Virus record (IMG/VR): IMGVR_UViG_3300030450_004218
Span: 1-22,028 of that record
Direction: 5' to 3' (one strand)
DNA length: 22,028 nucleotides
DNA from: a virus
Position 1 is the stretch's first letter. Every line of letters begins with the position of its first letter. The position numbers and the translations under genes are program-made. Positions 2,915-16,192 of the stretch are shown piece after piece. The notes under the pieces are model-generated. The model saw only the letters and a program-made list of their open reading frames with translations, did not search any database and was not told where the DNA came from.

Positions 2915-3145
2915 TTAATATCCTCCTAAAATAGTTTTACCAGTTTCTTCAGGAACCAATAATCCTTGTGAGCTGGTAGCAATAGTTGATTTATCTCCCG
3001 CTCTCGCCCTTGCTCTTTTTTCTGCATCTTCACGAGCTCGTCTCACAGCAGGATCAGCTTTTGTTGGTGGATCAGGTGGAGCCGGAGGTGGAGGTGGAGG
3101 TGGCGGGATGCTGGGAGCTTTAGGCGCGAGAGGTCCAATACACAT
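2915..3145 (-). CDS. Small proline-rich phage protein, first paralogue
   Basis: This 76-residue protein starts MCIGPLAPKAPSIPPPPPPP, has a highly charged Arg/Glu/Ala-rich stretch likely to be helical (about residues 33-50, RRAREDAEKRARARAGDK), a TSSQGLLVP segment and the C-terminus ETGKTILGGY. The terminal motif and Met-Cys-x-Gly-Pro start match the following gene, which indicates an old tandem duplication or a common docking tail. A TGGAGA precedes the ATG, and the start overlaps the terminase stop by one base. Function is unknown. Placement between terminase and portal in the head operon suggests a virion or packaging accessory role, but this is inference only. Confidence 0.7.
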   Translation of the reverse strand: MCIGPLAPKAPSIPPPPPPPPAPPDPPTKADPAVRRAREDAEKRARARAGDKSTIATSSQGLLVPEETGKTILGGY

Positions 3146-4668
3146 TATGCAATCTCCATAGAATATGGGTCAAAATCATGTTGAGCACGTTGTTTAGAAA
3201 CAGGGATGTGATCAACCTTGACTACAGGCATAGCGAATGTTAAAGCCAAAGCATCCGCTCTGTTTGGCGATGGAATACCACGGCGCTTCATATCTTCTTT
3301 TGATTCAAGCTGGATCTTACCATCAACTCTCGGGACAGTCTCTGGGCCAGTAAGGTCTGCACGAAGAACATCGTCCTCAGGGATGCAGCCGCCATCTTTG
3401 AGCCACTTACGAGTTTCATTCCACATGTGAGCTCTAAGATTCATACATCCAGCATCTGGGCTCTTAGCACTAAACCAAACGATCTGCCAATTGCGGCCCA
3501 TAGTCTTTCCAGCAGATACGATGCCTGTCCCAAAACCACCATCAACATGTACAGCGTCAGCTCCTTCATCGTCCTCAAACCGAGCAATGATATTGGCCAT
3601 TTCAATATCATTATCGTTCTTTTCCCATTTGCCAAGTTGCTTATAATAAAGCCCTTGCCGAATACCTATAATAAACTCATCATCGCCTGACCACGATGGG
3701 TCAACACCGATGACTTTAGGAGCAAAGTTGTAAGCTGTCTTTTTCAAATGCCTTTGTTGAGCTGCCTCAACATCAACTTCACTAATAAATTGCTTAAAAG
3801 ATGCTTTTGGAAAGTCACCTAAAACACGAACCTTAACCGTATCACTATCAAGTCCATAATCATTAATCATTTCATTAAGAAAGTTTTTATTAGTAATTTG
3901 GACCGATCTACTATCGACCTTATATGTTTTCCATCGATGCCGGAGTTTACGCCAACACTCACGAAAACGTCCTGTATTTCTAGTTGGATTGCCAAAGTTA
4001 AATTGCATCGGCTCACCGTCAGTTAAACCGCCGTCTTGAACTTCGAAGATTGCATCGGGGATAGCGGATGCTTCATCATTGATATAAAACGAGGTAGAAT
4101 TAGCCGCATGTTGGCCAGCAAATGCTTCAGAATTTTCTTCTCGGCAGGTTTGAGCAGAACAGAACCAAGAATCAGGGTAATCATTATGGACGATTTTACT
4201 AGCCCCAATCGTGAACCAATGAGATGCAACAGATAATTTCATCCATTTTTTAATCTGTGCCCAGGTTTTCGTTTCAAGTTGTTGGAAAGTATTAGCTGTA
4301 ACTGTCCCTTGGGCATAGGGCCGTGTACACATGATCCATGTTGTTATCCATCCTGTCATAGCTGACTTACCTACGCCGTGACCAGAAGCAACTGCCATAC
4401 GAATCGGATCTACTGCATCCACACCGTTAAACCCACGATCTCTAATAGCGTGACCAAGATCTTCTAAAAACTCACAAGCCCAAATATCTGGACCATAAAT
4501 AGACTTATATTTCTTTTTCCATTTACCTTGTAATTTGCAAACCTGGAGAGAGGCATCAGAATCCCAAGGGAAAGCATACATAACAAAGCCAAGAGGATCT
4601 GCATAAAATTGCCCCATATCTTTAGACAATTCCCAATCAATATCGATTTCACTTAGATTTGCTAACAC
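3145..4668 (-). CDS. terL: Terminase large subunit
   Basis: This 507-residue DNA packaging motor has an N-terminal ATPase and a C-terminal RNase H-fold nuclease. The ATPase shows Walker A at SGHGVGKS (residues 95-102), an adenine/arginine region just after it (TANTFQQLETKTW, about 124-136) and Walker B with the catalytic Glu at FYINDEAS (194-201). A coupling-type motif GNPTRNTGRF lies at about 226-235. The nuclease has the expected acidic residues at GVDPSWSGDD (D323), VDGGFG (D376) and NRADALAL near the C-terminus. The start is GTG at 4668 with AAGG about 9 bases upstream, overlapping the small terminase gene by 20 bases. All catalytic motifs are intact, so packaging function is very likely. 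The packaging type (pac or cos) cannot be read from this protein alone. Confidence 0.95.
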   Translation of the reverse strand: MLANLSEIDIDWELSKDMGQFYADPLGFVMYAFPWDSDASLQVCKLQGKWKKKYKSIYGPDIWACEFLEDLGHAIRDRGFNGVDAVDPIRMAVASGHGVGKSAMTGWITTWIMCTRPYAQGTVTANTFQQLETKTWAQIKKWMKLSVASHWFTIGASKIVHNDYPDSWFCSAQTCREENSEAFAGQHAANSTSFYINDEASAIPDAIFEVQDGGLTDGEPMQFNFGNPTRNTGRFRECWRKLRHRWKTYKVDSRSVQITNKNFLNEMINDYGLDSDTVKVRVLGDFPKASFKQFISEVDVEAAQQRHLKKTAYNFAPKVIGVDPSWSGDDEFIIGIRQGLYYKQLGKWEKNDNDIEMANIIARFEDDEGADAVHVDGGFGTGIVSAGKTMGRNWQIVWFSAKSPDAGCMNLRAHMWNETRKWLKDGGCIPEDDVLRADLTGPETVPRVDGKIQLESKEDMKRRGIPSPNRADALALTFAMPVVKVDHIPVSKQRAQHDFDPYSMEIA

Positions 4669-4924
4669 GCTTTCGACCTTCTTGGATTTGTTCTACAAGT
4701 TCGGGAGTAAATGCAAGAGTGTTACGTACTTCTTGCGGAAGCATTTTCACCCACAACTTATAAAAAGCTTCTGGTTCGGATTTACCAAACTCAATCAATT
4801 TCGGAATACCCCCAATCCCGTCAAAAGCGGCAGTCAATGCTTCTTTTACTGCAGCAGTGGATTTATTAGGAATACCTTTCCTTGATCCACCTCTTGGCAT
4901 TTTCTTTTTAGGAACATCAGCCAT
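4649..4924 (-). CDS. Putative terminase small subunit
   Basis: This protein of about 91 residues has a basic N-terminus (KKKMPRGGSRKGIPNKS), an Ala-rich helix and 'LIEFGKSEPEAFYKLWVKMLPQEV'-type helices. The GGSRKGxPNKST start followed by a helical domain is common in small phage proteins encoded just before the large terminase and resembles DUF5681-type terminase small subunits. It should bind the packaging site and recruit the motor, but this is inferred from context and general character. The start is uncertain. The ATG at 4924 has no convincing Shine-Dalgarno site; an in-frame TTG lies 6 bases upstream, and a later ATG (codon 9 from this start) follows an A-rich stretch. A promoter-like TGATACTTA lies only 7 bases before the ATG. 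Confidence 0.6.
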   Translation of the reverse strand: MADVPKKKMPRGGSRKGIPNKSTAAVKEALTAAFDGIGGIPKLIEFGKSEPEAFYKLWVKMLPQEVRNTLAFTPELVEQIQEGRKRVSKSK

Positions 4925-4931
4925 ATTCAAC

Positions 4932-4960
4932 TAAGTATCACAGATATTGCAGCAATAAAA
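4932..4960 (-). promoter_or_regulatory. Possible leftward promoter before the packaging operon
   Basis: On the minus strand TTTTAT (4960-4955) is followed after 17 bases by TACTTA (4937-4932), within the 9-mer TGATACTTA (4940-4932). The same 9-mer, with TTTACC 17 bases before TACTTA, occurs upstream of the leftward HTH gene at 7684-7712. The hexamers are weak matches to sigma70; alternatively GATACT inside the 9-mer is the -10. If it is a promoter, transcription would start at or within a few bases of the small terminase ATG. Confidence 0.25.
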
Positions 4961-4973
4961 CCTTTTTTGCAGA

Positions 4974-4982
4974 TTATCCACA
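4974..4982 (+). promoter_or_regulatory. Perfect DnaA box TTATCCACA
   Basis: The nonamer TTATCCACA matches the bacterial DnaA-box consensus TTATNCACA exactly. It stands in a non-coding gap beside the phage primase-helicase gene, next to an AT-rich tract, which makes a host DnaA-assisted origin plausible. A single nonamer can occur by chance, so the call depends on context. Confidence 0.45.
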
Positions 4983-4993
4983 CTATGTATCAG

Positions 4994-5010
4994 GGTGGTG
5001 GTGGTGGTGG
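4994..5010. repeat. GGT triplet array (five and two-thirds units)
   Basis: The plus strand reads GGTGGTGGTGGTGGTGG, giving six GG pairs in 17 bases, compatible with a two-tetrad G-quadruplex on that strand. Complementary CACCACC and ACCACC motifs lie at 5083-5089 and 5093-5098, so the array could also pair across the AT-rich tract. It is non-coding. Confidence 0.7.
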
Positions 5011-5033
5011 AATTTAGCTCTCTACTCTTTTAC

Positions 5034-5053
5034 ATATAGAGACTTCTCTATAT
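5034..5053. repeat. Perfect palindrome in AT-rich tract
   Basis: ATATAGAGA, a CT centre and TCTCTATAT form nine-base arms. The AT-rich arms and two-base centre make it a poor RNA terminator and more like a protein-binding site or melting element in the candidate origin. Confidence 0.6.
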
Positions 5054-5157
5054 ATTATTATACATATCATCTCATTATTTATCACCACCTTAACCACCAA
5101 ATAAGAAAAACATAAGGAAAATAAGGGATTTTTAGAGTGGTGTAATATCCCACCAAA

Positions 5158-7455
5158 TCACCACCCTTTAGTCTTAATATACCCCCGAATCTCTTTTAAA
5201 CTCATATCTCGCTTAGTATATACCGTTGCTTTGTCCCCTTTAAATTTGATTTGTTTTTCAAAAGGGCTTAAATTACACCTCCTTAATATCGTTGCTTTAT
5301 CCCGTCGATTTGGATCAATTGGATCATCGAACATAGTTTCATCTTTTAAATGATTAAATAATCGGGCTGTAAATACAACATTCTCATCCCAACCAATTCC
5401 CCCAGTTTTAAGTAATCGCCGGACTTCAGTTAATCCTTCTAGCTTATCTTCTTCCATCCTTATCATAATAGCCTTAGATCTTGTTTCAGGAGCTCGTACA
5501 GCGTTTTCAATTTTATCCACTGGGTATTCCATCATCCATTCACGGACTTGACCTCCATAGGTTCGTACATCTTCAAATAAAGTTTGAAAATAATCTCCAT
5601 CCGGCAAATCCGATATAGACAGAGGAGAAAAAGCTATCCAATATCTACGATCACCATCATCTAAAGGAATAGCATCTTTGTAATTAGTAAACGATATATA
5701 ATTAGTTACATTTTGAACATTATGGGCTTTGACGTTTTTTTCATTAACATCGATGACCTCATCCGTGATCATAGGTTTAAGAGCATTCGCTGTATCAAAA
5801 CGATTGTGACCAGCTAATTTTAATTCCTCTAAAATATTTACTACTGTTCCTGTTGCCCATCCGTTAAAGTCTCGGGTCAATGCTTGAGTTGGGACAATAC
5901 CAATATTTGCACTTCCAAGACCTTGGATTAGGATCTCTTTAAATAAAGATTTCCCAGCGCCTTGGCAAGACTGGATAACCGGCGACCAAAGAATTTTTTT
6001 ACCAGGGAATTGAATATTGTGAGCTAGCCATTGTAAAAGGATTTCCGTATCATCTTCATTACCAATAATCATTTGGATATGATCAATAGCCCGATTGATA
6101 ACAGATAAACCTTTTTTAGTAATTGGCTTTGATTCAGGGATACTCTCAGGGCTGAAAGTATTTAGATAGCGTTGCCCATTTACATATGGCAACGGTTCGT
6201 CACCAGCTTGGGGTAAATATTGCAAACCCGTAACTGTTTTGATCCAACCATTATCTTCTAACCAGCCAATAACATTTAGACGAGATCCTCCTTCTATCAT
6301 AGGAGCTCGTTGTTGGAATTTGTGACGAAATGTTTTCTCACGGATGCAACGTCTTTTCTTAACAGAACCATATTCCCCCGAAGCGTCGACATAAACCCAA
6401 TCTCGGGTCCAATCCGGTTCATCGCCGCCTTCACGATTAACAATTGAATATTGAAGTTGTGGCCGGATTGTCCCAATAGCTGGTTTTACCCCCGTAATTT
6501 GATGAAGCCTTCGTTGAATACTAACAGCTAAGATTTCACGATCTTGGTCAGATAATTCCATTTGGCATATTTCACTATATAAAGAAATATTGATTTCCCG
6601 TTCATCACTAACTTGGATTTTATTTAACATTTGTTGGCGGCGGTTTAAAGATTCTTCGAAATCCGAAGTTTTAGCCATATGAACTAAAGTTCCAATAGTA
6701 ACTTCACCATTGACACGGAAAGAAGGCCAACGGTTAGCAGTTTCTCCTTCTTGCCAGGTGTCCCCACCAATAGACCATTCTTCCCATAATTCTAAACCCC
6801 GATTCGGATCCCAATTCTTTAAAGCCATCCCAACACGTACCCAATCATCATTGGGGATATTGTGATCAATCTTATCTAATAAATTTAAGACCCGTTCTTC
6901 AGTTGCTGAGCCATCGCCAATTAAACCTTCAAAGTCTCCAAGGTCATCGCCAACATCAGATTTTTCATATTGTTCACGAACTAATAAATCAAGAAGATCG
7001 TTTGGGGCTTTCGATTGATGGAAACCCCCATTCGTCCATTTGTATTGTTTACTCTCAACCTTACTTCCAGCAATCACACATTGAGCACCAACAGATAAAA
7101 AATCAATACCTTCATAACCTTTAAGATTTTTTTTAAGTTTACGTCCTATATATTTTTGGGATATAGATAGATAAATATGGAAACCGCCTCCCGCGGTTTT
7201 TACCGTATTATCGAAACCCCCAAACCGATCAGCTAGCTTTTCGAAGCTAGCTGATCCCCCATTCCGAGGATCAACATCGATTACTAAATCTTTTTCACTA
7301 AGGACCCAACCGAGGTTGCCTTTATGGGCTCTTATTTTTTCTTCTGAAAGTTCCGTCGCTTGCCAATCTTTAATTAAAGGACGTTTTATTTTTAAAGGTG
7401 TTAAGTTTGCATTAGCTTCTATGTATTGATCCACATACGAGCGGTTCACCATCAT
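5158..7455 (-). CDS. Primase-polymerase / SF3 helicase (bifunctional replication protein)
   Basis: This 765-residue replication protein should unwind DNA and lay primers at the fork. The N-terminus is a prim-pol domain: LVIDVDPRNGG (catalytic D60 and D62), then TAGGGFHIYLS (His93) and EGIDFLSVGAQCVIAGS (about 115-131). Residues ~190-262 form a PriCT-2-like linker (DDWVRVGMALKNWDP ... LELWEEWS ... RWPSFRVNGEVTIGTLVHMA). The C-terminus is a superfamily 3 / VapE-like helicase: Walker A SCQGAGKS (496-503), Walker B VNILEEL (539-545) and sensor region NYISFTNYKDAIPLDDGDRR (585-604). All are intact. The ATG overlaps the HTH stop as ATGA, so the two are coupled. It is transcribed away from the polymerase module, together with packaging genes. 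A perfect 13-base inverted repeat lies inside codons 67-76. Confidence 0.93.
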   Translation of the reverse strand: MMVNRSYVDQYIEANANLTPLKIKRPLIKDWQATELSEEKIRAHKGNLGWVLSEKDLVIDVDPRNGGSASFEKLADRFGGFDNTVKTAGGGFHIYLSISQKYIGRKLKKNLKGYEGIDFLSVGAQCVIAGSKVESKQYKWTNGGFHQSKAPNDLLDLLVREQYEKSDVGDDLGDFEGLIGDGSATEERVLNLLDKIDHNIPNDDWVRVGMALKNWDPNRGLELWEEWSIGGDTWQEGETANRWPSFRVNGEVTIGTLVHMAKTSDFEESLNRRQQMLNKIQVSDEREINISLYSEICQMELSDQDREILAVSIQRRLHQITGVKPAIGTIRPQLQYSIVNREGGDEPDWTRDWVYVDASGEYGSVKKRRCIREKTFRHKFQQRAPMIEGGSRLNVIGWLEDNGWIKTVTGLQYLPQAGDEPLPYVNGQRYLNTFSPESIPESKPITKKGLSVINRAIDHIQMIIGNEDDTEILLQWLAHNIQFPGKKILWSPVIQSCQGAGKSLFKEILIQGLGSANIGIVPTQALTRDFNGWATGTVVNILEELKLAGHNRFDTANALKPMITDEVIDVNEKNVKAHNVQNVTNYISFTNYKDAIPLDDGDRRYWIAFSPLSISDLPDGDYFQTLFEDVRTYGGQVREWMMEYPVDKIENAVRAPETRSKAIMIRMEEDKLEGLTEVRRLLKTGGIGWDENVVFTARLFNHLKDETMFDDPIDPNRRDKATILRRCNLSPFEKQIKFKGDKATVYTKRDMSLKEIRGYIKTKGW
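7227..7256. repeat. Perfect 13-bp hairpin inside the primase gene
   Basis: GATCAGCTAGCTT, a TTCG loop and AAGCTAGCTGATC form an exact inverted repeat. It lies in codons for about residues 67-76 of the primase, between the metal-binding Asp pair and the GGxHxY motif. No mismatch is present even though the region is coding. Confidence 0.75.
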
Positions 7456-7646
7456 ACACCTGCCTGAACAAGAAAGTCTGTAACCTTCTTTCTTACCGAT
7501 AAATTAATATCATCAGACTCACCTTGCAGCATCCGTCTTAAAGTAGGGTATGATATCCCTGAGCCTTTAGCAACCTCAAGAAGTCTCTGCTCGCTAAGTT
7601 TGTTCATAAACTCATCACGAGTAAAAACGGTAATACTCTCTGGCAT
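7452..7646 (-). CDS. Small Cro/CI-like HTH DNA-binding protein
   Basis: This 64-residue protein contains a helix-turn-helix of the lambda repressor type: LSEQRLLEVAKGSGISYPTL (about residues 17-36) followed by RRMLQGE, where 'VAKGSGISYPTLRRMLQGE' matches the turn and recognition helix of small Xre/Cro proteins. It is only a DNA-binding domain with no dimerisation or cleavage domain. An AAAGGA lies 8 bases before the ATG. It is the first gene of the leftward operon, is coupled to the primase by ATGA, and sits beside the divergent promoter region, so autoregulation and control of early gene direction are plausible. No integrase is visible in the window, so a lysogeny role cannot be claimed. Confidence 0.75.
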   Translation of the reverse strand: MPESITVFTRDEFMNKLSEQRLLEVAKGSGISYPTLRRMLQGESDDINLSVRKKVTDFLVQAGV

Positions 7647-10056: not shown

Positions 10057-10647
10057 ATGCCTAAACAAATGGAAAATTCTAAAATCCACCTCAAAAATGT
10101 TCGCTTATCCTTTCCATCATTATTCCGTCGGGCACAGTTTAACCCTGGGGAAGAAGGTAAGTATGAAGCTACATTTTTGTTCTCTAAAAAAGACAAAAAG
10201 CTTAAAGCTAAAATCGACAAAGCAATTAAAACTAAAATTGCTGAATCGGGGATTAAGGTTGCTAGTGATAAGCGATGTCTTAAAGACGGAGACGAAGTAG
10301 AATATAACGGTTATGAAGGGATGTGGTCAATTAAAGCTTCTCAGTCCCGCCGACCAACCGTTATAGATCGGGATCGTACACCCATCGCCGAAGAAGATAA
10401 TGTCATATATGCAGGATGTTATGTCAATGCTATTATCGACTTGTGGGTCCAAAATAATTCTTTTGGAAAACGAGTTAACGCTAACCTTTATGGTGTTCAA
10501 TTTGTAAAGGGTGGCGAAGCATTCGGTATGGGCCCTGTTGATGTCACTGACGATTTTGATGATCTTAGTGATGACGAGGAAGATGACGACCTCGACGAGG
10601 AAGATGACGACCTCGACGAGGAAGATGACGACCTCGACGACGATTAA
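10057..10647 (+). CDS. DUF2815 single-stranded DNA-binding protein
   Basis: This 196-residue protein matches the DUF2815 / Enc34-type SSB family: KIHLKNVRLSFPSLFRRAQF (about residues 9-28), GKYEATFLFSKKD (34-46), NGYEGMWSIKAS (84-95), RPTVIDRDRTPI (99-110) and YAGCYVNAIIDLWVQNN...GKRVNANLYGVQF (118-149), an OB-fold pattern. The C-terminus is an extremely acidic tail of about 30 residues including three exact EEDDDLD repeats (174-194). Acidic tails of SSBs normally recruit replication proteins. A lone gene with its own promoter before and a terminator after, it is set up for abundant independent expression, as expected for an SSB. Confidence 0.9.
   Translation: MPKQMENSKIHLKNVRLSFPSLFRRAQFNPGEEGKYEATFLFSKKDKKLKAKIDKAIKTKIAESGIKVASDKRCLKDGDEVEYNGYEGMWSIKASQSRRPTVIDRDRTPIAEEDNVIYAGCYVNAIIDLWVQNNSFGKRVNANLYGVQFVKGGEAFGMGPVDVTDDFDDLSDDEEDDDLDEEDDDLDEEDDDLDDD
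10576..10638 (+). repeat. Three tandem 21-bp repeats in the SSB acidic tail
   Basis: The 21-base unit beginning GAGGAAGATGACGACCTCGA occurs three times without mismatch, at 10576, 10597 and 10618, each encoding EEDDDLD. Identity at synonymous sites points to recent slippage or unequal crossing-over. Confidence 0.95.
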
Positions 10648-10690: not shown

Positions 10691-10703
10691 TCCGGTGAAC
10701 CCC

Positions 10704-12479
10704 ATGCAAATGAACGATATAGTTGCCTTCGATATAGAGCTCTTTCCCAATTACTTCCTTCTGTCGATGAAACATGTTAAATCTGGCAAAGTAATATCAT
10801 TTGAACTTAAATCTGGAAAAAGCTCTGTTACCACTCTTGATCGAGATCGGGTTATGAGCCTAATTAAAAAACGAATCTTGGTTGGATACAATTCTAATAA
10901 CTATGATGCCCCGATCCTCAGTCAATACCTCCATGGGGCATCTGTAACCCTTTTGAAGAAATTATCCGACTATATTATTGAAAATTCTAGCCCTGGTTGG
11001 ATGACGATGAAGAACTTTGGGATTGAGCCGATTGATATAAACCATATTGACTTAATAGAACCATCCCCTGCGGTAAAGATAGGTCTAAAGCTTTATGGGG
11101 CGAGGATGCACTCGCAGCGTCTCCAAGATCTTCCGTATCCTCCTAATAGGATCTTAACGAAGAAAGAGATGAAGAAAGTTCTATCATATTGTGAGAACGA
11201 CTTAGACACAACTATTGATCTATTTAAAGAAATGAAGCCCGCCTTAGAACTCAGAGAAAAGATTAGCAGCGAGTATCGATCTAACGTTATGAGCAAATCT
11301 GACGGGCAAATTGCTGAAGCAATTTTTAAATCCAAACTAGGTCAAGTTTCGAAGCCAGGAGAATTTAAAGGTAAAATTAGATATTTACCTCCAGAATATC
11401 TCCGCTTTAAAGACCCCCAACTTAAAGCTATTCAAGAATTTGTAGAAGAACACGAATTCGAACTTGATGGTAAAGGAGCAGTTAAACTTCCCCCAGAATT
11501 GAAAGAGATGAAGATCGAGATTGGCCGCTCTATATATCGGATCGGGATTGGTGGCCTTCACTCATCTGAGAAAGCCCAAATATTAAAACCAACGAAAAAA
11601 CAGAAACTGGTTGATCGCGACGTCACGTCTTATTACCCTATGATTATTATCAATAGAGAGCTCGCACCAAAACACCTTGGCAAACAATTTTTGAAAATCT
11701 ATAATAAAATGTTCGAAGACCGAGCAGCGGCCAAAAGAACCGGAGATAAACTTATAGATGCATCTTTAAAGCTTGCCTTGAACTCTAGTTTTGGAAAGTT
11801 AGGATCCAAATGGTCGTTCCTATATTCCCCTGAACTAATGTTAAACGTGACGTTAACCGGTCAGCTTTGTTTACTATGGCTAATTGAAGTTCTCGAACGA
11901 AATGGTATCCAAGTCATGTCAGCTAATACTGATGGCTTCGTCTCGCTAGTCGACGATATGGAAACCTTTGACAAGATCTGTAGTAAATGGGAGCGCAAAA
12001 CGAAGTTCAATTTAGAAGATACTTATTATAAGGCATTATATTCCCGAGACGTAAATAATTATCTCGCGATTACTATCGACGGTAAAACAAAAGGTAAAGG
12101 AATATTTGCTGAGACTTCGCTACGAAAAAACCCAACTGGCGATATAATTATTAAAGCTGTTATAGATTACTTATTATTAGGAACTCCAATCGAAGAAACA
12201 ATAAACGCATGTGATGATACTCGTAAATTTATTTTTGCTCGTACAGTTAAAGGTGGAGCTGTTTGGAAAGATCAATATCTTGGTCGGGTCGTCCGTTGGA
12301 TTCATTCTACTCAAGGGGAAGCTATAAGGTATGAGAGCAATAACAACCGAGTTCCAAAATCCGATATGGCTTGGGCAATGATGGAAATGTCTGATGTCCC
12401 ACTTCATCTTGATCGAACTCGATATATTGATGAAGCCCGTGACGTACTGGGATCTTTAGGAATTAATTATGGAAGCTAA
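10704..12479 (+). CDS. Family B DNA polymerase with 3'-5' exonuclease
   Basis: The phage replicative polymerase, 591 residues from the ATG at 10704. That start is chosen because GGTGA lies 5 bases upstream; an in-frame GTG at 10695 is the alternative. Exonuclease motifs are FDIELF (D10, E12), GYNSNNYDAP (D68) and YCENDLD (Y162, D166). Polymerase motif A is VDRDVTSYYP (D306), motif B KLALNSSFGKLGS (K356, N360, G364) and motif C SANTDGF (N408, D410). Motif C departs from the usual DTDS, with Asn for the first Asp, but keeps the second. A GIGGLHS segment lies before motif A. It is much shorter than cellular B polymerases, as in compact phage forms, and there is no sign of a terminal-protein region. 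It overlaps the VRR-NUC gene by 11 bases. Confidence 0.93.
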   Translation: MQMNDIVAFDIELFPNYFLLSMKHVKSGKVISFELKSGKSSVTTLDRDRVMSLIKKRILVGYNSNNYDAPILSQYLHGASVTLLKKLSDYIIENSSPGWMTMKNFGIEPIDINHIDLIEPSPAVKIGLKLYGARMHSQRLQDLPYPPNRILTKKEMKKVLSYCENDLDTTIDLFKEMKPALELREKISSEYRSNVMSKSDGQIAEAIFKSKLGQVSKPGEFKGKIRYLPPEYLRFKDPQLKAIQEFVEEHEFELDGKGAVKLPPELKEMKIEIGRSIYRIGIGGLHSSEKAQILKPTKKQKLVDRDVTSYYPMIIINRELAPKHLGKQFLKIYNKMFEDRAAAKRTGDKLIDASLKLALNSSFGKLGSKWSFLYSPELMLNVTLTGQLCLLWLIEVLERNGIQVMSANTDGFVSLVDDMETFDKICSKWERKTKFNLEDTYYKALYSRDVNNYLAITIDGKTKGKGIFAETSLRKNPTGDIIIKAVIDYLLLGTPIEETINACDDTRKFIFARTVKGGAVWKDQYLGRVVRWIHSTQGEAIRYESNNNRVPKSDMAWAMMEMSDVPLHLDRTRYIDEARDVLGSLGINYGS

Positions 12480-12750: not shown

Positions 12751-13546
12751 TCAAATAACAAAAACTTTTTTACAAACAGCTAGGCCTGTCCATACAGAAA
12801 AGTGGCAAGGAGTAGATATCAAGGATCGTCCCGAAGCAGAAATGATGGAACAATTATTTGCAACTCTTCGCATGCCAGTACCGACTGAACTCAGTGAACT
12901 TCGTGAACTTTGCCAGCCAAACCTGCCATGGGCTGATGATCACTTCGAACAGGAACGAGTCAGTGGCGAACCGATCAACCCTGGTAAGACTTGGGAATAT
13001 TGGCCTTGGGCAAGTTCGGCAAATAAGTTTAGAGATAAAGACGAACAATTCAATCATTCTTATGCCGAACGTTATTGGCCAAAGTTTGCAGGGCTTACTA
13101 AGGATGGGCATTTGCATGAAAAAAATAATTCCTCAAAAAGTAGCAATTGGAAACCGCCAATAGTAATCAATGGGATCAGGGAACCATATGGCGATCTTAA
13201 CGACGTAGTATCACTCCTGATTCGAGAGCCACATACTCGGCAAGCTTATTTACCTATATTTTTTCCCGAGGATACAGGGGTAGTTCATGGGGGCCGAGTA
13301 CCGTGTTCACTAGGTTACCATTTTATTCAACGAGAAACTTATCTTCATATTATTTACCAACTTCGATCTTGTGATATCGTTCGACATATGAGAGATGATA
13401 TTTATCTGACCTGCCGTCTCCTCCTTTGGGTCCTTGATAAATTGAAGATCGAATATCCATGGATGCAACCTGGCTTCCTCGATATGCAAATGACTTCGTT
13501 GCATTGCTTTACAAACGATTTTAGAAAAATGAAAAATAATTTTTAA
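12737..13546 (+). CDS. Thymidylate-synthase-family enzyme, probably dCMP-specific (hydroxymethylase-like)
   Basis: This 269-residue protein has the thymidylate synthase fold signature: FNHSYAERYWPKFAG (about 105-119, the YG-x-x-W region), PYGDLNDVVSLLIREPHTRQ (150-169, with R168 of the phosphate-binding pair), RVPCSLGYHFIQRE (catalytic Cys190), LRSCDIVRHMRDDIY (R210, S211, D213) and SLHCFTND (His256, with Phe at the usual Tyr position). In RSxD-x6-7-FN, the Asn that selects dUMP is Asp221 here. The same exchange occurs in T4 dCMP hydroxymethylase and favours cytosine. The enzyme therefore probably methylates or hydroxymethylates dCMP with methylene-tetrahydrofolate. The N-terminus is divergent. 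It sits in a nucleotide-metabolism block; the exact reaction is unproven. Confidence 0.75.
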   Translation: MNPIDQITKTFLQTARPVHTEKWQGVDIKDRPEAEMMEQLFATLRMPVPTELSELRELCQPNLPWADDHFEQERVSGEPINPGKTWEYWPWASSANKFRDKDEQFNHSYAERYWPKFAGLTKDGHLHEKNNSSKSSNWKPPIVINGIREPYGDLNDVVSLLIREPHTRQAYLPIFFPEDTGVVHGGRVPCSLGYHFIQRETYLHIIYQLRSCDIVRHMRDDIYLTCRLLLWVLDKLKIEYPWMQPGFLDMQMTSLHCFTNDFRKMKNNF

Positions 13547-13552
13547 AGGGGG

Positions 13553-13581
13553 TTTACTTATTTTGAGTTAGGGCTCAATAT
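13553..13581 (+). promoter_or_regulatory. Promoter before the DUF932-like gene
   Basis: TTTACT (13553-13558), 17 bases, CAATAT (13576-13581), preceded by AAAGGGGG. Exactly 6 bases after the -10 comes ATCATCAAC, the same element at the same distance as in the promoter copies at 20313 and 21395. This makes it a member of one phage promoter family. Confidence 0.65.
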
Positions 13582-13616
13582 CTTGAAATCATCAACATTT
13601 AGAACGGAGTTAAAAC

Positions 13617-14363
13617 ATGACCTTTATATATAACCCTAAAAACGAAGCCCTTCTCAATCGCGACCAGTTGTCCAAGGTGGTCACTCCGGATCCTCTTGGC
13701 CGCTTCCACCGCCCAGTCGATTACGCTGACTTCATTGTTATGATCGACGGCAAACTAGCCGACCATGAAATCGAAATCGTCGATGAGCAGTTCGCTGTCA
13801 AACACGACGGTTCGCAATTTTTCGGTCTAATGGAAGTCACTACTCCACAAACCGAAAACCTTGATTGGTCGATGAAGATCGGCGTTCGTGGTTCTCACGA
13901 CGGTCGCGTCTCCCGAGGCATTACTTTCGGTTCGAATGTCCTCGTATGTTCTAACCTTTGCTTCCACGGCGATCTCGGCGTCTTTCGTACTCGCCAGACC
14001 TTAAATGTCATGGACCGCCTTCCGCCGATGATCGATGAAGCAATTGCAAAGATCCCTCACATGGCCCAAGAAAACGTGGTTCGCTTCGACAGTTTCCGCA
14101 CAACCCAGATGACCGAAAAGGACGGCAACCACGCCCTCGTTCACATGCACCGCGAAGGCATCCTCTCGGCCAACCAGCTCAGCACGGCGATCGACGAATG
14201 GGTCGAGCCCCGCCACGAAGAGCACAACGAAGACGGCGCTACTTTATGGCGTCTGTTCAACTCCGCCACCGAAGCCATCAAACCGGCCACCGGCGGTAAC
14301 ATGGCCACGCTGCAAGATCGGTCCCGTCGCATCAGCGACTTCGCTGATCGGCTGGCCGCTTAA
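13617..14363 (+). CDS. DUF932-like phage protein
   Basis: This 248-residue soluble protein has a central KIGVRGSHDGRVSRGITFGSNVLVCSNLCF-type segment (about residues 84-113) in which 'SHDGxxxxxxxxGxxVxVCxNLxF' resembles the DUF932 family, and a helical C-terminal half. DUF932 proteins are frequent in phages and plasmids near replication genes, but their biochemical function is not established. It has its own promoter and a strong hairpin after the stop, so it can be expressed separately and probably highly. Its base composition is clearly more GC-rich, with C-ending codons, than adjacent genes, suggesting either expression-tuned codons or separate acquisition. A GGAG precedes the ATG. Confidence 0.65.
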   Translation: MTFIYNPKNEALLNRDQLSKVVTPDPLGRFHRPVDYADFIVMIDGKLADHEIEIVDEQFAVKHDGSQFFGLMEVTTPQTENLDWSMKIGVRGSHDGRVSRGITFGSNVLVCSNLCFHGDLGVFRTRQTLNVMDRLPPMIDEAIAKIPHMAQENVVRFDSFRTTQMTEKDGNHALVHMHREGILSANQLSTAIDEWVEPRHEEHNEDGATLWRLFNSATEAIKPATGGNMATLQDRSRRISDFADRLAA

Positions 14364-14367
14364 TCAT

Positions 14368-14401
14368 CTGATGAGCCGGTCCTAAAAGACCGGCTCATCA
14401 G
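14368..14401 (+). terminator. Strong hairpin after the DUF932-like gene
   Basis: CTGATGAGCCGGTC (14368-14381), a 6-base loop CTAAAA and GACCGGCTCATCAG (14388-14401) make a perfect 14-bp stem 4 bases after the stop. It lacks a run of U's (ACCTTAAT follows), so it may be an mRNA 3' end stabiliser or partial terminator rather than a classical terminator. Confidence 0.65.
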
Positions 14402-14435
14402 ACCTTAATATTAAACCCTAAAAGGAGATAAAATC

Positions 14436-14876
14436 ATGTCACGCACTTACGAATTCATCCTTAAAAATCCCGGCTCAACTGTTGCCGATATTGTTAACGC
14501 CATGCCGATCACTGAAGACAAAGTTCGGTATCAGATCAAAATGTCTGGAGATATGCTTCTCAAAGACGATGGTCGTCCGGCCCGCTACACGGCAGCCCCG
14601 ATCGACGAAGATATCGATGAAGACATCGACGAAGCCCCAGTTAAATCTGATGAGTCGCAAGGCGACAAGCCGAAGCGAGTCATCCTAAACCCACAACCCG
14701 TGATCAACAAAATGATTGCCACGGCAAAAGAAGCCGGTGTCAATATGACATATAATAAGGCCGATCGGACTTGGTATTTTTCAAAAGGAAAATTATCAGC
14801 TTTTAAAAAGTCCCAAGAACTTCCCAATATCCGGGAAAAGGGTTTTGAAAAATGGCTTGGAAATAATTTCTCTTGA
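14436..14876 (+). CDS. Uncharacterised protein with winged-helix-like start (146 aa)
   Basis: The N-terminal ~50 residues (MSRTYEFILKNPGSTVADIV, then ITEDKVRYQIKMSGDMLLKD) resemble a small winged-helix domain of the kind in which 'GSTVADIVNAM-x-x-x-x-x-KVRYQI' forms helices 2 and 3. An acidic linker with repeated DED/DEDI (about residues 57-67) follows. The C-terminal half is basic (GVNMTYNKADRTWYFSKGKL) and might be a second nucleic-acid-binding domain. An AAGGAGAT lies 7 bases before the ATG. It overlaps the SNF2 helicase start by 4 bases, so it is probably a partner in the same process. No named family is recognised. Confidence 0.65.
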   Translation: MSRTYEFILKNPGSTVADIVNAMPITEDKVRYQIKMSGDMLLKDDGRPARYTAAPIDEDIDEDIDEAPVKSDESQGDKPKRVILNPQPVINKMIATAKEAGVNMTYNKADRTWYFSKGKLSAFKKSQELPNIREKGFEKWLGNNFS

Positions 14877-16192
14877 GGAAACTTCGGCCCGATCAAAAGG
14901 TTATGGTCCAGCATTTGCTGGACCATAACTGTGCCGGTTTATTTGTTGAAATGGGATGGGGCAAAACTATCGCAACACTTATAGCATTACATCAGATGAA
15001 AGAAAGACCAATCCTTTTAGTTGCTCCTATACGAGTCATCCAATCTGTATGGATGCAAGAAGATAAGAAATGGAATGTCGGTCTTTCGTTTTCTCTTGTA
15101 TATGGCAAACCCGAAGAACGAATTACTGCTTTAAATAAGAAAGCAGATATCTATTTGATTAACCCAGAAAACCTTGTATGGATGTTTGATCAACGCCAAT
15201 TACCGGATTTTCAGATCCTAGTTGTCGATGAAAGCAGTATGTTCAAAAACGTTGGATCTAAACGATTCAGAAAGCTTCGTTATAAAATTAAAGATTTCAA
15301 AAGACGGTATATCCTAACTGGAACTCCAACACCAAATTCTTTATTAGAATTGTGGCCTCAGATGTTTATCGTCGACCGAGGAGAAAGGTTAGGCCAAACG
15401 GCCGGAGCTTACAAAGCCAGGTTTTTTCATCCTGTTGATTATCACGGATGGAAATTCGAACCCAACCCTGGTGCAAAGAAAGCCATTTATGAACGAGTAC
15501 AAGATGTCGTATTACAACAAGGTGGAAATCTACCTGATCTACCTAGTTTTAAGTATAATCGAATCAGGGTTGAATTGGATCCTGGGCACAAACAATTTTA
15601 TGACGACATCGAGGAGGAAGCTTTAGCTACTTTCGATGGTGTTACGATTACGGCAGCCAACGTTGTAGCCGGAATGATGAAATGCCGGCAGATTGCTAAC
15701 GGGATATTTTACGATGACGACGGTGAGTCGGTCGAACTGCACACTAAGAAACTAGATGCTCTCCAAGAGGTGATCGAGGAAACTGGTTCGAACGTGATCG
15801 TCGTTTACAACTTCCGACATGAACTCACTGTTATACAAAAGAAACTTAAAGAGTATAAGCCAGTTATATTAAACGAAGATAAGAATGCAATTAATAATTG
15901 GAATAATGGAAAGGTTCGTGTTCTTCTTCTCCATCCCGCTTCGGGGGGTCATGGACTTAACCTCCAGGACGGTGGTCACACTATGGTTTGGTTTGGGCTA
16001 ACATTCTCGTATGAACAGTTTGCCCAGACGGTCGCCAGGATCCATCGTAGTGGGCAAAAGAATTCAGTTGTCTGCCATTTCATCACAAGCCGAGGAACAG
16101 TTGACCAACTCATGTGGAAAGCTCTCAATGTTAAAAAGAAAGGTCAAGGTGAATTGCTAAAAGCCCTTAAAGATTATAGGAGCAAGAAATGA
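14873..16192 (+). CDS. SNF2-family DNA helicase / ATPase
   Basis: This 439-residue superfamily 2 translocase shows all helicase motifs in order: KLRPDQ (Q-like, residues 3-8), EMGWGKT (motif I, 26-32), LLVAPIRVIQSVW (Ia), VVDESS (II, 117-122), LTGTPTPN (III, 148-155), an IVVYNFRHEL segment (IV), LLHPASGGHGLNLQDGG (V) and QTVARIHRSGQ (VI). The start is taken as TTG at 14873 because it keeps the LRPDQ motif; the next ATG (14903) would remove it. It is coupled to both neighbours by TTGA and ATGA overlaps. Phage SNF2 proteins of this size belong to replication modules and probably remodel forks or displace bound proteins. A perfect 12-bp hairpin lies at codons 10-19. Confidence 0.93.
   Translation: MRKLRPDQKVMVQHLLDHNCAGLFVEMGWGKTIATLIALHQMKERPILLVAPIRVIQSVWMQEDKKWNVGLSFSLVYGKPEERITALNKKADIYLINPENLVWMFDQRQLPDFQILVVDESSMFKNVGSKRFRKLRYKIKDFKRRYILTGTPTPNSLLELWPQMFIVDRGERLGQTAGAYKARFFHPVDYHGWKFEPNPGAKKAIYERVQDVVLQQGGNLPDLPSFKYNRIRVELDPGHKQFYDDIEEEALATFDGVTITAANVVAGMMKCRQIANGIFYDDDGESVELHTKKLDALQEVIEETGSNVIVVYNFRHELTVIQKKLKEYKPVILNEDKNAINNWNNGKVRVLLLHPASGGHGLNLQDGGHTMVWFGLTFSYEQFAQTVARIHRSGQKNSVVCHFITSRGTVDQLMWKALNVKKKGQGELLKALKDYRSKK
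14901..14928. repeat. Perfect 12-bp hairpin at the 5' end of the helicase gene
   Basis: TTATGGTCCAGC, an ATTT loop and GCTGGACCATAA form an exact inverted repeat within codons 10-19 of the helicase. It starts 25 bases downstream of the TTG start codon, and the in-frame ATG at 14903 is inside its left arm. Confidence 0.8.

Follow-up and report, generated by a model that had tools for sequence, protein, structure and literature searches.

The window analysed here is the entire 22,028-base viral contig IMGVR_UViG_3300030450_004218, and the element in question is a non-coding gap within it, a candidate phage replication origin. Genes are transcribed leftward until ~7.65 kb and rightward beyond. 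The gap proper (4931-5157) is flanked by the stop codon of a primase-helicase gene (5158) and by the start of a gene for a small terminase (TerS)-like protein (4930, minus strand). The primase-helicase gene (5158-7455, minus strand) encodes the initiator candidate, a 765-aa relative of the NrS-1 polymerase with PrimPol, PriCT_2 and DUF5906/superfamily 3 (SF3) helicase domains. An earlier note on this DNA had proposed an origin composed of a perfect DnaA box, a GGT array capable of forming a G-quadruplex, a 9+9 palindrome and CACC clusters able to pair with the array, beside a primase-helicase gene. All of these elements (TTATCCACA, the GGT array, the palindrome and the CACC clusters) are present, and the gap does begin at the stop codon of a PrimPol/PriCT_2/SF3-helicase gene.

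Two arms of short repeats, here called iterons, face each other across the gap. The TerS-side arm is the GGT array GGTGGTGGTGGTGGTGG (4994-5010, minus strand), which reads as five CCACC on the primase-sense strand. Its inverted partner is the primase-side arm (5083-5098, minus strand), which consists of two units, GGTGGTTAA and GGTGGTG, on the primase-sense strand. Between them lies an AT-rich core (5011-5082), measured as a 73-nt spacer between 16-nt arms with 77% AT, which is likely to be the melting region. The palindrome (ATATAGAGA-CT-TCTCTATAT, 5034-5053, with halves at 5034-5042 and 5045-5053) falls within this core. Additional iteron copies are found at 5134-5167 (GTGGTG at 5137, CCACC at 5150 and CACCACCC at 5159-5167), and CACC clusters occur at 5083-5098, 5150-5154 and 5159-5167. 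The terminal codons of the primase together with its stop (GGG TGG TGA, window 5158-5167) double as an iteron copy, so the array extends into the coding region.

Within the window, these repeats are concentrated at the gap. All seven occurrences of GTGGTG/CACCAC on the 22-kb contig, and 7 of the 11 of GGTGGT/ACCACC, fall in 4931-5170. GGTGGTGG has four overlapping matches against 0.19 expected, a count reached in 0 of 100 shuffles. The direct and inverted GC-containing 7-mer pairs of the gap were equalled by 0 of 500 shuffles, and the gap holds the contig's top 300-nt window for inverted 7-mer pairs (18, against 16 in the best of 849 outside windows). The 9-nt tandem in the primase-side arm was matched by 30 of 1000 mononucleotide shuffles. 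The proposed CACC-GGT pairing stands insofar as the two arms are inverted partners, with 13 of 16 positions paired, but the long inverted repeat they form (GGTGGTTAAGGTGGTG / CACCACCACCACCACC) was equalled by 107 of 300 dinucleotide shuffles in an ungapped test and is not significant alone. The strong evidence for an origin is comparative and does not come from the window alone.

Relatives were fetched from viral contigs as relatives of the large terminase subunit (TerL) and as primase-profile relatives (80 loci). The post-primase stretch was examined in L022-L045 (24 of the 80 primase-profile loci, 4 of which ended too early), and the 54 weaker-match loci L046-L099 lay outside the examined set. 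Repeats occur among the 24 (L025 equals L023, L029 and L030 equal L028, L035 equals L010 and L045 equals L044). A close-relative primase scan of viral contigs and a primase-profile scan of genome contigs each confirmed no relative. Most of the relatives examined have inverted iterons with an AT core 3' of the primase; besides the window, these are L006-L008, L010, L022, L024, L026-L028, L031, L034, L037, L039-L041, L043 and L044. Comparison of these loci shows, at the level of sequence, that the spelling of the iterons varies between phages while both arms still match each other and the layout is constant. In L006-L008 the gap has AAGTGGTTAAGGTGTCTA ... TAGACACCTTGACCACTT or a sequence close to it, with a spacer of 81-82 where measured (two of the three); the repeat of L010 is GGTAACAAG, L024 has AAGTTTTAAG, L037 has GGTTCCTAG, the repeat units of L040-L044 start with GGGG, and L023, L027, L028, L031 and L034 share some form of (GG)TTACAAG. 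In most loci the arms are built of tandem 6-9-nt units. Arm spacing was 71-98 nt in 21 of 22 measured loci, with L009 at 50, and the AT content of the core ranged from 51 to 92% (22 loci measured).

Direct and inverted 7-mers reached the observed level in at most 1 of 500 shuffles for 21 of 26 stretches; of these, L023 and L025 owe the result to repeats in coding sequence. Sixteen of the 26 stretches had a fixed length of 400 nt and may include coding DNA. Twenty of 25 target gaps outranked all non-overlapping windows of their own locus. An unrestricted k-mer search of the gaps returned only AT-rich words, slightly above shuffles, and a position-restricted motif test was therefore used. Outside the primase-side arm the strand is T-rich (mean T/(A+T) 0.63) and inside it is A-rich (0.34) across 22 loci, some of them closely related. 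The T-rich motif TTGNTTTTATTA, derived from five loci and picked after viewing all sequences, was found with at most one mismatch in 5 of 19 other loci (0.38 expected, 0/1000) and with at most two in 9 of 19 (2.9 expected, 0/1000), mostly 13-16 nt outside the primase-side arm. The test set omitted the near-duplicates L008 and L043; no arm pair was placed by hand in L007, L026 and L032, which do not contribute to the arm and motif measurements. In the window a degenerate copy with three mismatches, found by eye, lies 14 nt outside the arm (5113-5124, minus strand); the scan's own best match has two mismatches and lies 3 nt from the arm.

The conservation in relatives that the earlier note had named as a check thus has a divided outcome. 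The GGT/CACC inverted pair and the AT core recur as a layout, whereas the DnaA box, the G-quadruplex and the full palindrome do not. Only one half of the palindrome, ATATAGAGA, recurs, in L006-L008, where TATAATATATAGAGA resembles TATAATAATATATAGAGA on the primase-sense strand of the window; the other half is unshared. A DnaA-dependent origin, in which a DnaA box and a GGT G-quadruplex would be the working parts, could draw on one exact TTATCCACA (4974-4982, plus strand), but the box is exact in 1 of 23 comparable gaps and present with at most one mismatch in 2 of 23. The window holds five copies of it at up to one mismatch against 6.4 expected, so a single exact copy in a 227-nt gap is only suggestive post hoc. 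Nor do most relatives have the GG-run pattern in their iterons. In the window, the GGT run appears to be the local expansion of an iteron for which most relatives have a different 6-9-mer, and the G-quadruplex is therefore not conserved. These results make a DnaA-dependent origin very improbable and suggest that the DnaA box and the GGT G-quadruplex are probably incidental, as is the full palindrome. The initiator is more likely to be the neighbouring PrimPol-helicase than DnaA.

The layout was also present in phages with names. Inverted iterons lie 3' of the primase relative in six of seven named phages examined: TATCCG-type in Vibrio phage LP.1 and Vibrio 1.017.O, ACCCGGGTCC-type in Nostoc phage Nsp-JY18, GGTTCC-type in Curvibacter phage PCA1, TCCCGG-type in SS2019XI and, beyond a small opposite-strand open reading frame (ORF), GCCTCGTTT-type in BPP-1. 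Collectively, the conserved inverted-iteron and AT-core layout supports the proposal that the gap is a phage replication origin, recognised by the neighbouring primase-helicase, to which we assign a probability of roughly 85%. Several observations weigh against it. In the seventh named phage, Alteromonas phage ZP6, the gap 3' of the primase is a single nucleotide. GC skew, another check named in the earlier note, changes sign at ~7.65 kb, where transcription diverges, and not at the gap. The gap's lead on inverted 7-mers is narrow, and its long inverted repeat scores no better than shuffled sequence. Five of the 25 loci (L022, L023, L031, L043 and L012) do not rank first in their own locus, and the array of L023 is displaced 1.4 kb downstream. 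L032 ranks first through a hairpin just past the primase stop, without iterons, and terminator-like hairpins inflate the scores of L006-L008; the best inverted repeat of L007 is such a hairpin and not the arms. In L009, L011 and L012 the element stands beside TerS, and the primase relative is distant (26-27% identity over the helicase part) and at least 1 kb upstream. In Vibrio phage PS25B.1 an array lies near TerS and far from the D5-like helicase gene.

These last cases bear on whether the repeats could instead be a packaging site (pac or cos) bound by the adjacent small terminase. The element immediately precedes TerS in the window, L003/L011, L006-L010 and L012, the distant-primase loci included, and the top inverted-repeat window of PS25B.1 is near TerS and not beside the helicase gene. 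Since the element usually sits where the replication module meets the packaging module, location alone is not decisive. A packaging site would be expected to stay with the terminase genes; taken together the arrays do not, with PS25B.1 as a counter-case. In LP.1 and Nsp-JY18 the array adjoins the primase, 1.4-2.1 kb from TerS (the packaging module of LP.1 differs), and in PCA1 and BPP-1 the arrays are likewise 3' of the primase. Conversely, where a related TerL (43-55% identity) occurs with no such primase adjacent, TerS is preceded by just 12 bp in BIS08P22 and 3 bp in HB2107-3I, and neither phage has an array that stands out. Nor does one stand out in L013, L015 and L018, over the stretches fetched, or in the Carin1 record, which likewise have a related TerL and no such primase adjacent. 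The layout is therefore one that tracks the primase and not the terminase among the sequences compared, and we consider a packaging site improbable. A purely regulatory spacer, with a terminator for the primase operon and a promoter and operators for the packaging operon, is slightly less credible still. Terminator-like hairpins do directly follow the primase in L006-L008 and LP.1, and the window has a promoter-like match at 5085-5057 (minus strand), but promoter- and terminator-like matches in the window are no commoner than in shuffles. Such a spacer also fails to explain inverted tandem iterons 71-98 nt apart whose sequence turns over with the arms still matching. Regulatory functions could coexist with an origin.

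It is also conceivable, though unlikely, that the gap is an origin of a different kind, in which a long inverted repeat is extruded as a hairpin, as proposed for pRN1 and BIP-1, and is not a set of protein-binding iterons. L009 and L011 have long near-perfect arms (inverted-repeat scores of 28 and 21, 0/300 shuffles), and stem symmetry matters in pRN1, as described in the study of that plasmid (PMC4234260). However, the arms of most loci are tandem 6-9-nt units, for which a plain hairpin would have no need, and this counts for iterons. Extra iteron copies in both orientations lie outside the arms in L010, L026, L027, L034, LP.1 and L044, several arm pairs including that of the window pair imperfectly, and the BPP-1 stem itself is made of tandem GCCTCGTTT units.

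We return to the reading of the gap as an origin recognised by the primase-helicase, and to the protein itself. Pfam matches to the 765-aa protein were Prim-Pol (4.7e-11), PriCT_2 (1.1e-16) and DUF5906 (5.3e-17), so that it has both the AEP PrimPol with a helical PriCT/HBD domain and the SF3/D5-like helicase domain of pRN1-type proteins. In sequence, the helicase part matched the polymerase of phage NrS-1 (E 9e-11); the best fold match was the NrS-1 C-terminal region (E 7e-19), and the SaPI5 primase-helicase structure 7ola was also a fold match. The last 108 residues were modelled (pLDDT 87) as helix-helix-strand-helix-helix-strand-strand-helix, a predicted winged helix (5161-5484, minus strand) and the likely iteron binder. 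Winged-helix proteins were prominent among its best structural matches, at Z 5-6 (<8) and a Foldseek E of only 0.03, and no SaPI or P4 initiator domain was among the Foldseek/PDB structural matches listed. A common fold alone shows no function. In a Mantel test over 15 loci, iteron similarity correlated with initiator identity for every domain (rho 0.44-0.66); the correlation therefore mirrors relatedness, without setting the C-terminus apart.

A plausible sequence of events can be proposed. The C-terminal winged helix would bind the iterons, and each arm could then receive one of two SF3 hexamers that face in opposite directions. These would melt the AT core, the T-rich stretch that flanks it or both, and the PrimPol domain would prime on the exposed strands. 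The phage DNA polymerase (10695-12479) and the single-stranded DNA-binding protein (SSB, 10057-10647) may then take over, probably bidirectionally. We also considered the iterons as priming sites. The NrS-1 polymerase, the closest solved relative of the initiator, prefers to prime at GTGG/GTGA (PMC8718748), two TTTGGTTA sites are described in the NrS-1 genome (PMC7102993), and motifs of the GTGG/GTGA type are abundant in the window's iterons. However, GTG and GTGG are missing from the iterons that most relatives carry (GGTTACAAG, AAGTTTTAAG, TATCCG, GGTTCCTAG and others), so priming at iterons is not general and the idea of universal GTG priming sites was rejected.

By analogy, the gap resembles the known origins that lie 3' of initiator-helicase genes in phage-inducible chromosomal islands (PICIs), including Staphylococcus pathogenicity islands (SaPIs), in the staphylococcal cassette chromosome SCCmec and in plasmid pRN1. 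PICI origins are a published precedent, as described in PMC6092414. As in PICIs and SaPIs, the gap is directly 3' of the primase, two iteron sets flank an AT-rich region (weakly in the window's long-arm test, strongly across relatives) and the initiator resembles the SaPI5 primase-helicase in fold. PICIs are satellites without structural genes, whereas this contig has TerL and portal genes, and we therefore file it as a phage. It is podovirus-like, with its own terminase, portal and polymerase, and its initiator is closest to the NrS-1 polymerase. In SCCmec the initiator helicase Cch2 binds repeats 3' of its own gene, a putative origin, through its C-terminal domain; that system belongs to a staphylococcal element with a separate polymerase-type primase, and its binding is described as requiring direct repeats, with inverted ones dispensable (PMC7581432). 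P4 alpha and pRN1 ORF904, like Cch2, are described as binding origin or other DNA through a C-terminal DNA-binding domain (PMC4234260, PMC7581432).

For pRN1, the study describes a required 100-nt stem-loop 3' of the PrimPol gene, notes a stem-loop in BIP-1, to which BPP-1 is said to be nearly identical, and reports no origin-like iterons (PMC4234260). The window shares with pRN1 and BIP-1, as they are described there, an AEP primase with an SF3 helicase, a small regulator gene upstream, and, 3' of the primase gene, a symmetric element of ~100 nt that lacks sequence conservation; the predicted C-terminal winged helix would correspond to theirs. It differs in that theirs is presented as a stem-loop without iterons, whereas the arms here, and those of BPP-1 on re-inspection, are tandem iterons. 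The window lacks a large perfect stem-loop of the pRN1 type; long arms occur in L009 and L011. We tentatively suggest, at less than even odds, that the "stem-loop" origins of pRN1 and BPP-1 belong together with the "iteron" origins described for PICIs and SCCmec in a single class, with tandem iterons in inverted sets that flank an AT core, all of it 3' of a primase-helicase gene, and that free-living phages have often swapped the iterons, with initiator recognition changing in step. If so, each phage's origin would be private to its own initiator, for example with respect to co-infecting relatives or satellites.

The gap thus seems to be an origin whose general kind is known, in what is seemingly an undescribed phage setting, with the turnover of its iterons as the interesting part. 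In a search of open-licence full texts, no account was found of this origin layout across phages that carry primases of the NrS-1 type. The iterons are proposed recognition sequences for the phage PrimPol-helicase family; in the pRN1 study, the origin motifs of this family are described as 'not yet identified'. They would provide more than 12 natural iteron/initiator pairs in which the evolution of origin specificity can be studied. They also suggest where to look for the origin of a phage with such a primase, namely in the DNA 3' of the gene.

The genes around the locus are as follows. The TerS-like gene (4649-4930, minus strand) was assigned by position and belongs to a PHROG of unknown function, and TerL (3145-4668, minus strand) has tblastn relatives annotated as terminase. 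Immediately upstream of the initiator is a small helix-turn-helix (HTH) protein (7452-7646, minus strand) that weakly matches DUF2089-HTH and a repressor PHROG. Nothing was found in the window by Rfam or tRNA scans. The SSB has an acidic tail that is repeated (DEEDDDLDEEDDDLDD). Among the relatives, three opposite-strand ORFs in L023 (5964-7061 and 7220-7580) separate the primase from the GTTACAAG iteron array; one of them is rich in NIN-A-(F/R) repeats, a tract in which the close relative L025 differs. In the fetched 7 kb of PCA1 (L101), 6401-6700 has more inverted 7-mer repeats than the post-primase gap. In PS25B.1 (L020), 34597-35075 holds iteron-like TTGACACT copies and a 21-bp inverted repeat with a spacer of 91; it is the top inverted-repeat window of the 44-kb genome and could be a displaced origin or something else. 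Finally, G+C content at 13500-15000 of the window, which spans the gene at 13617-14363 and its neighbour, rises to ~0.49-0.50 against ~0.38-0.43 nearby, and this jump suggests that the stretch has a separate origin.

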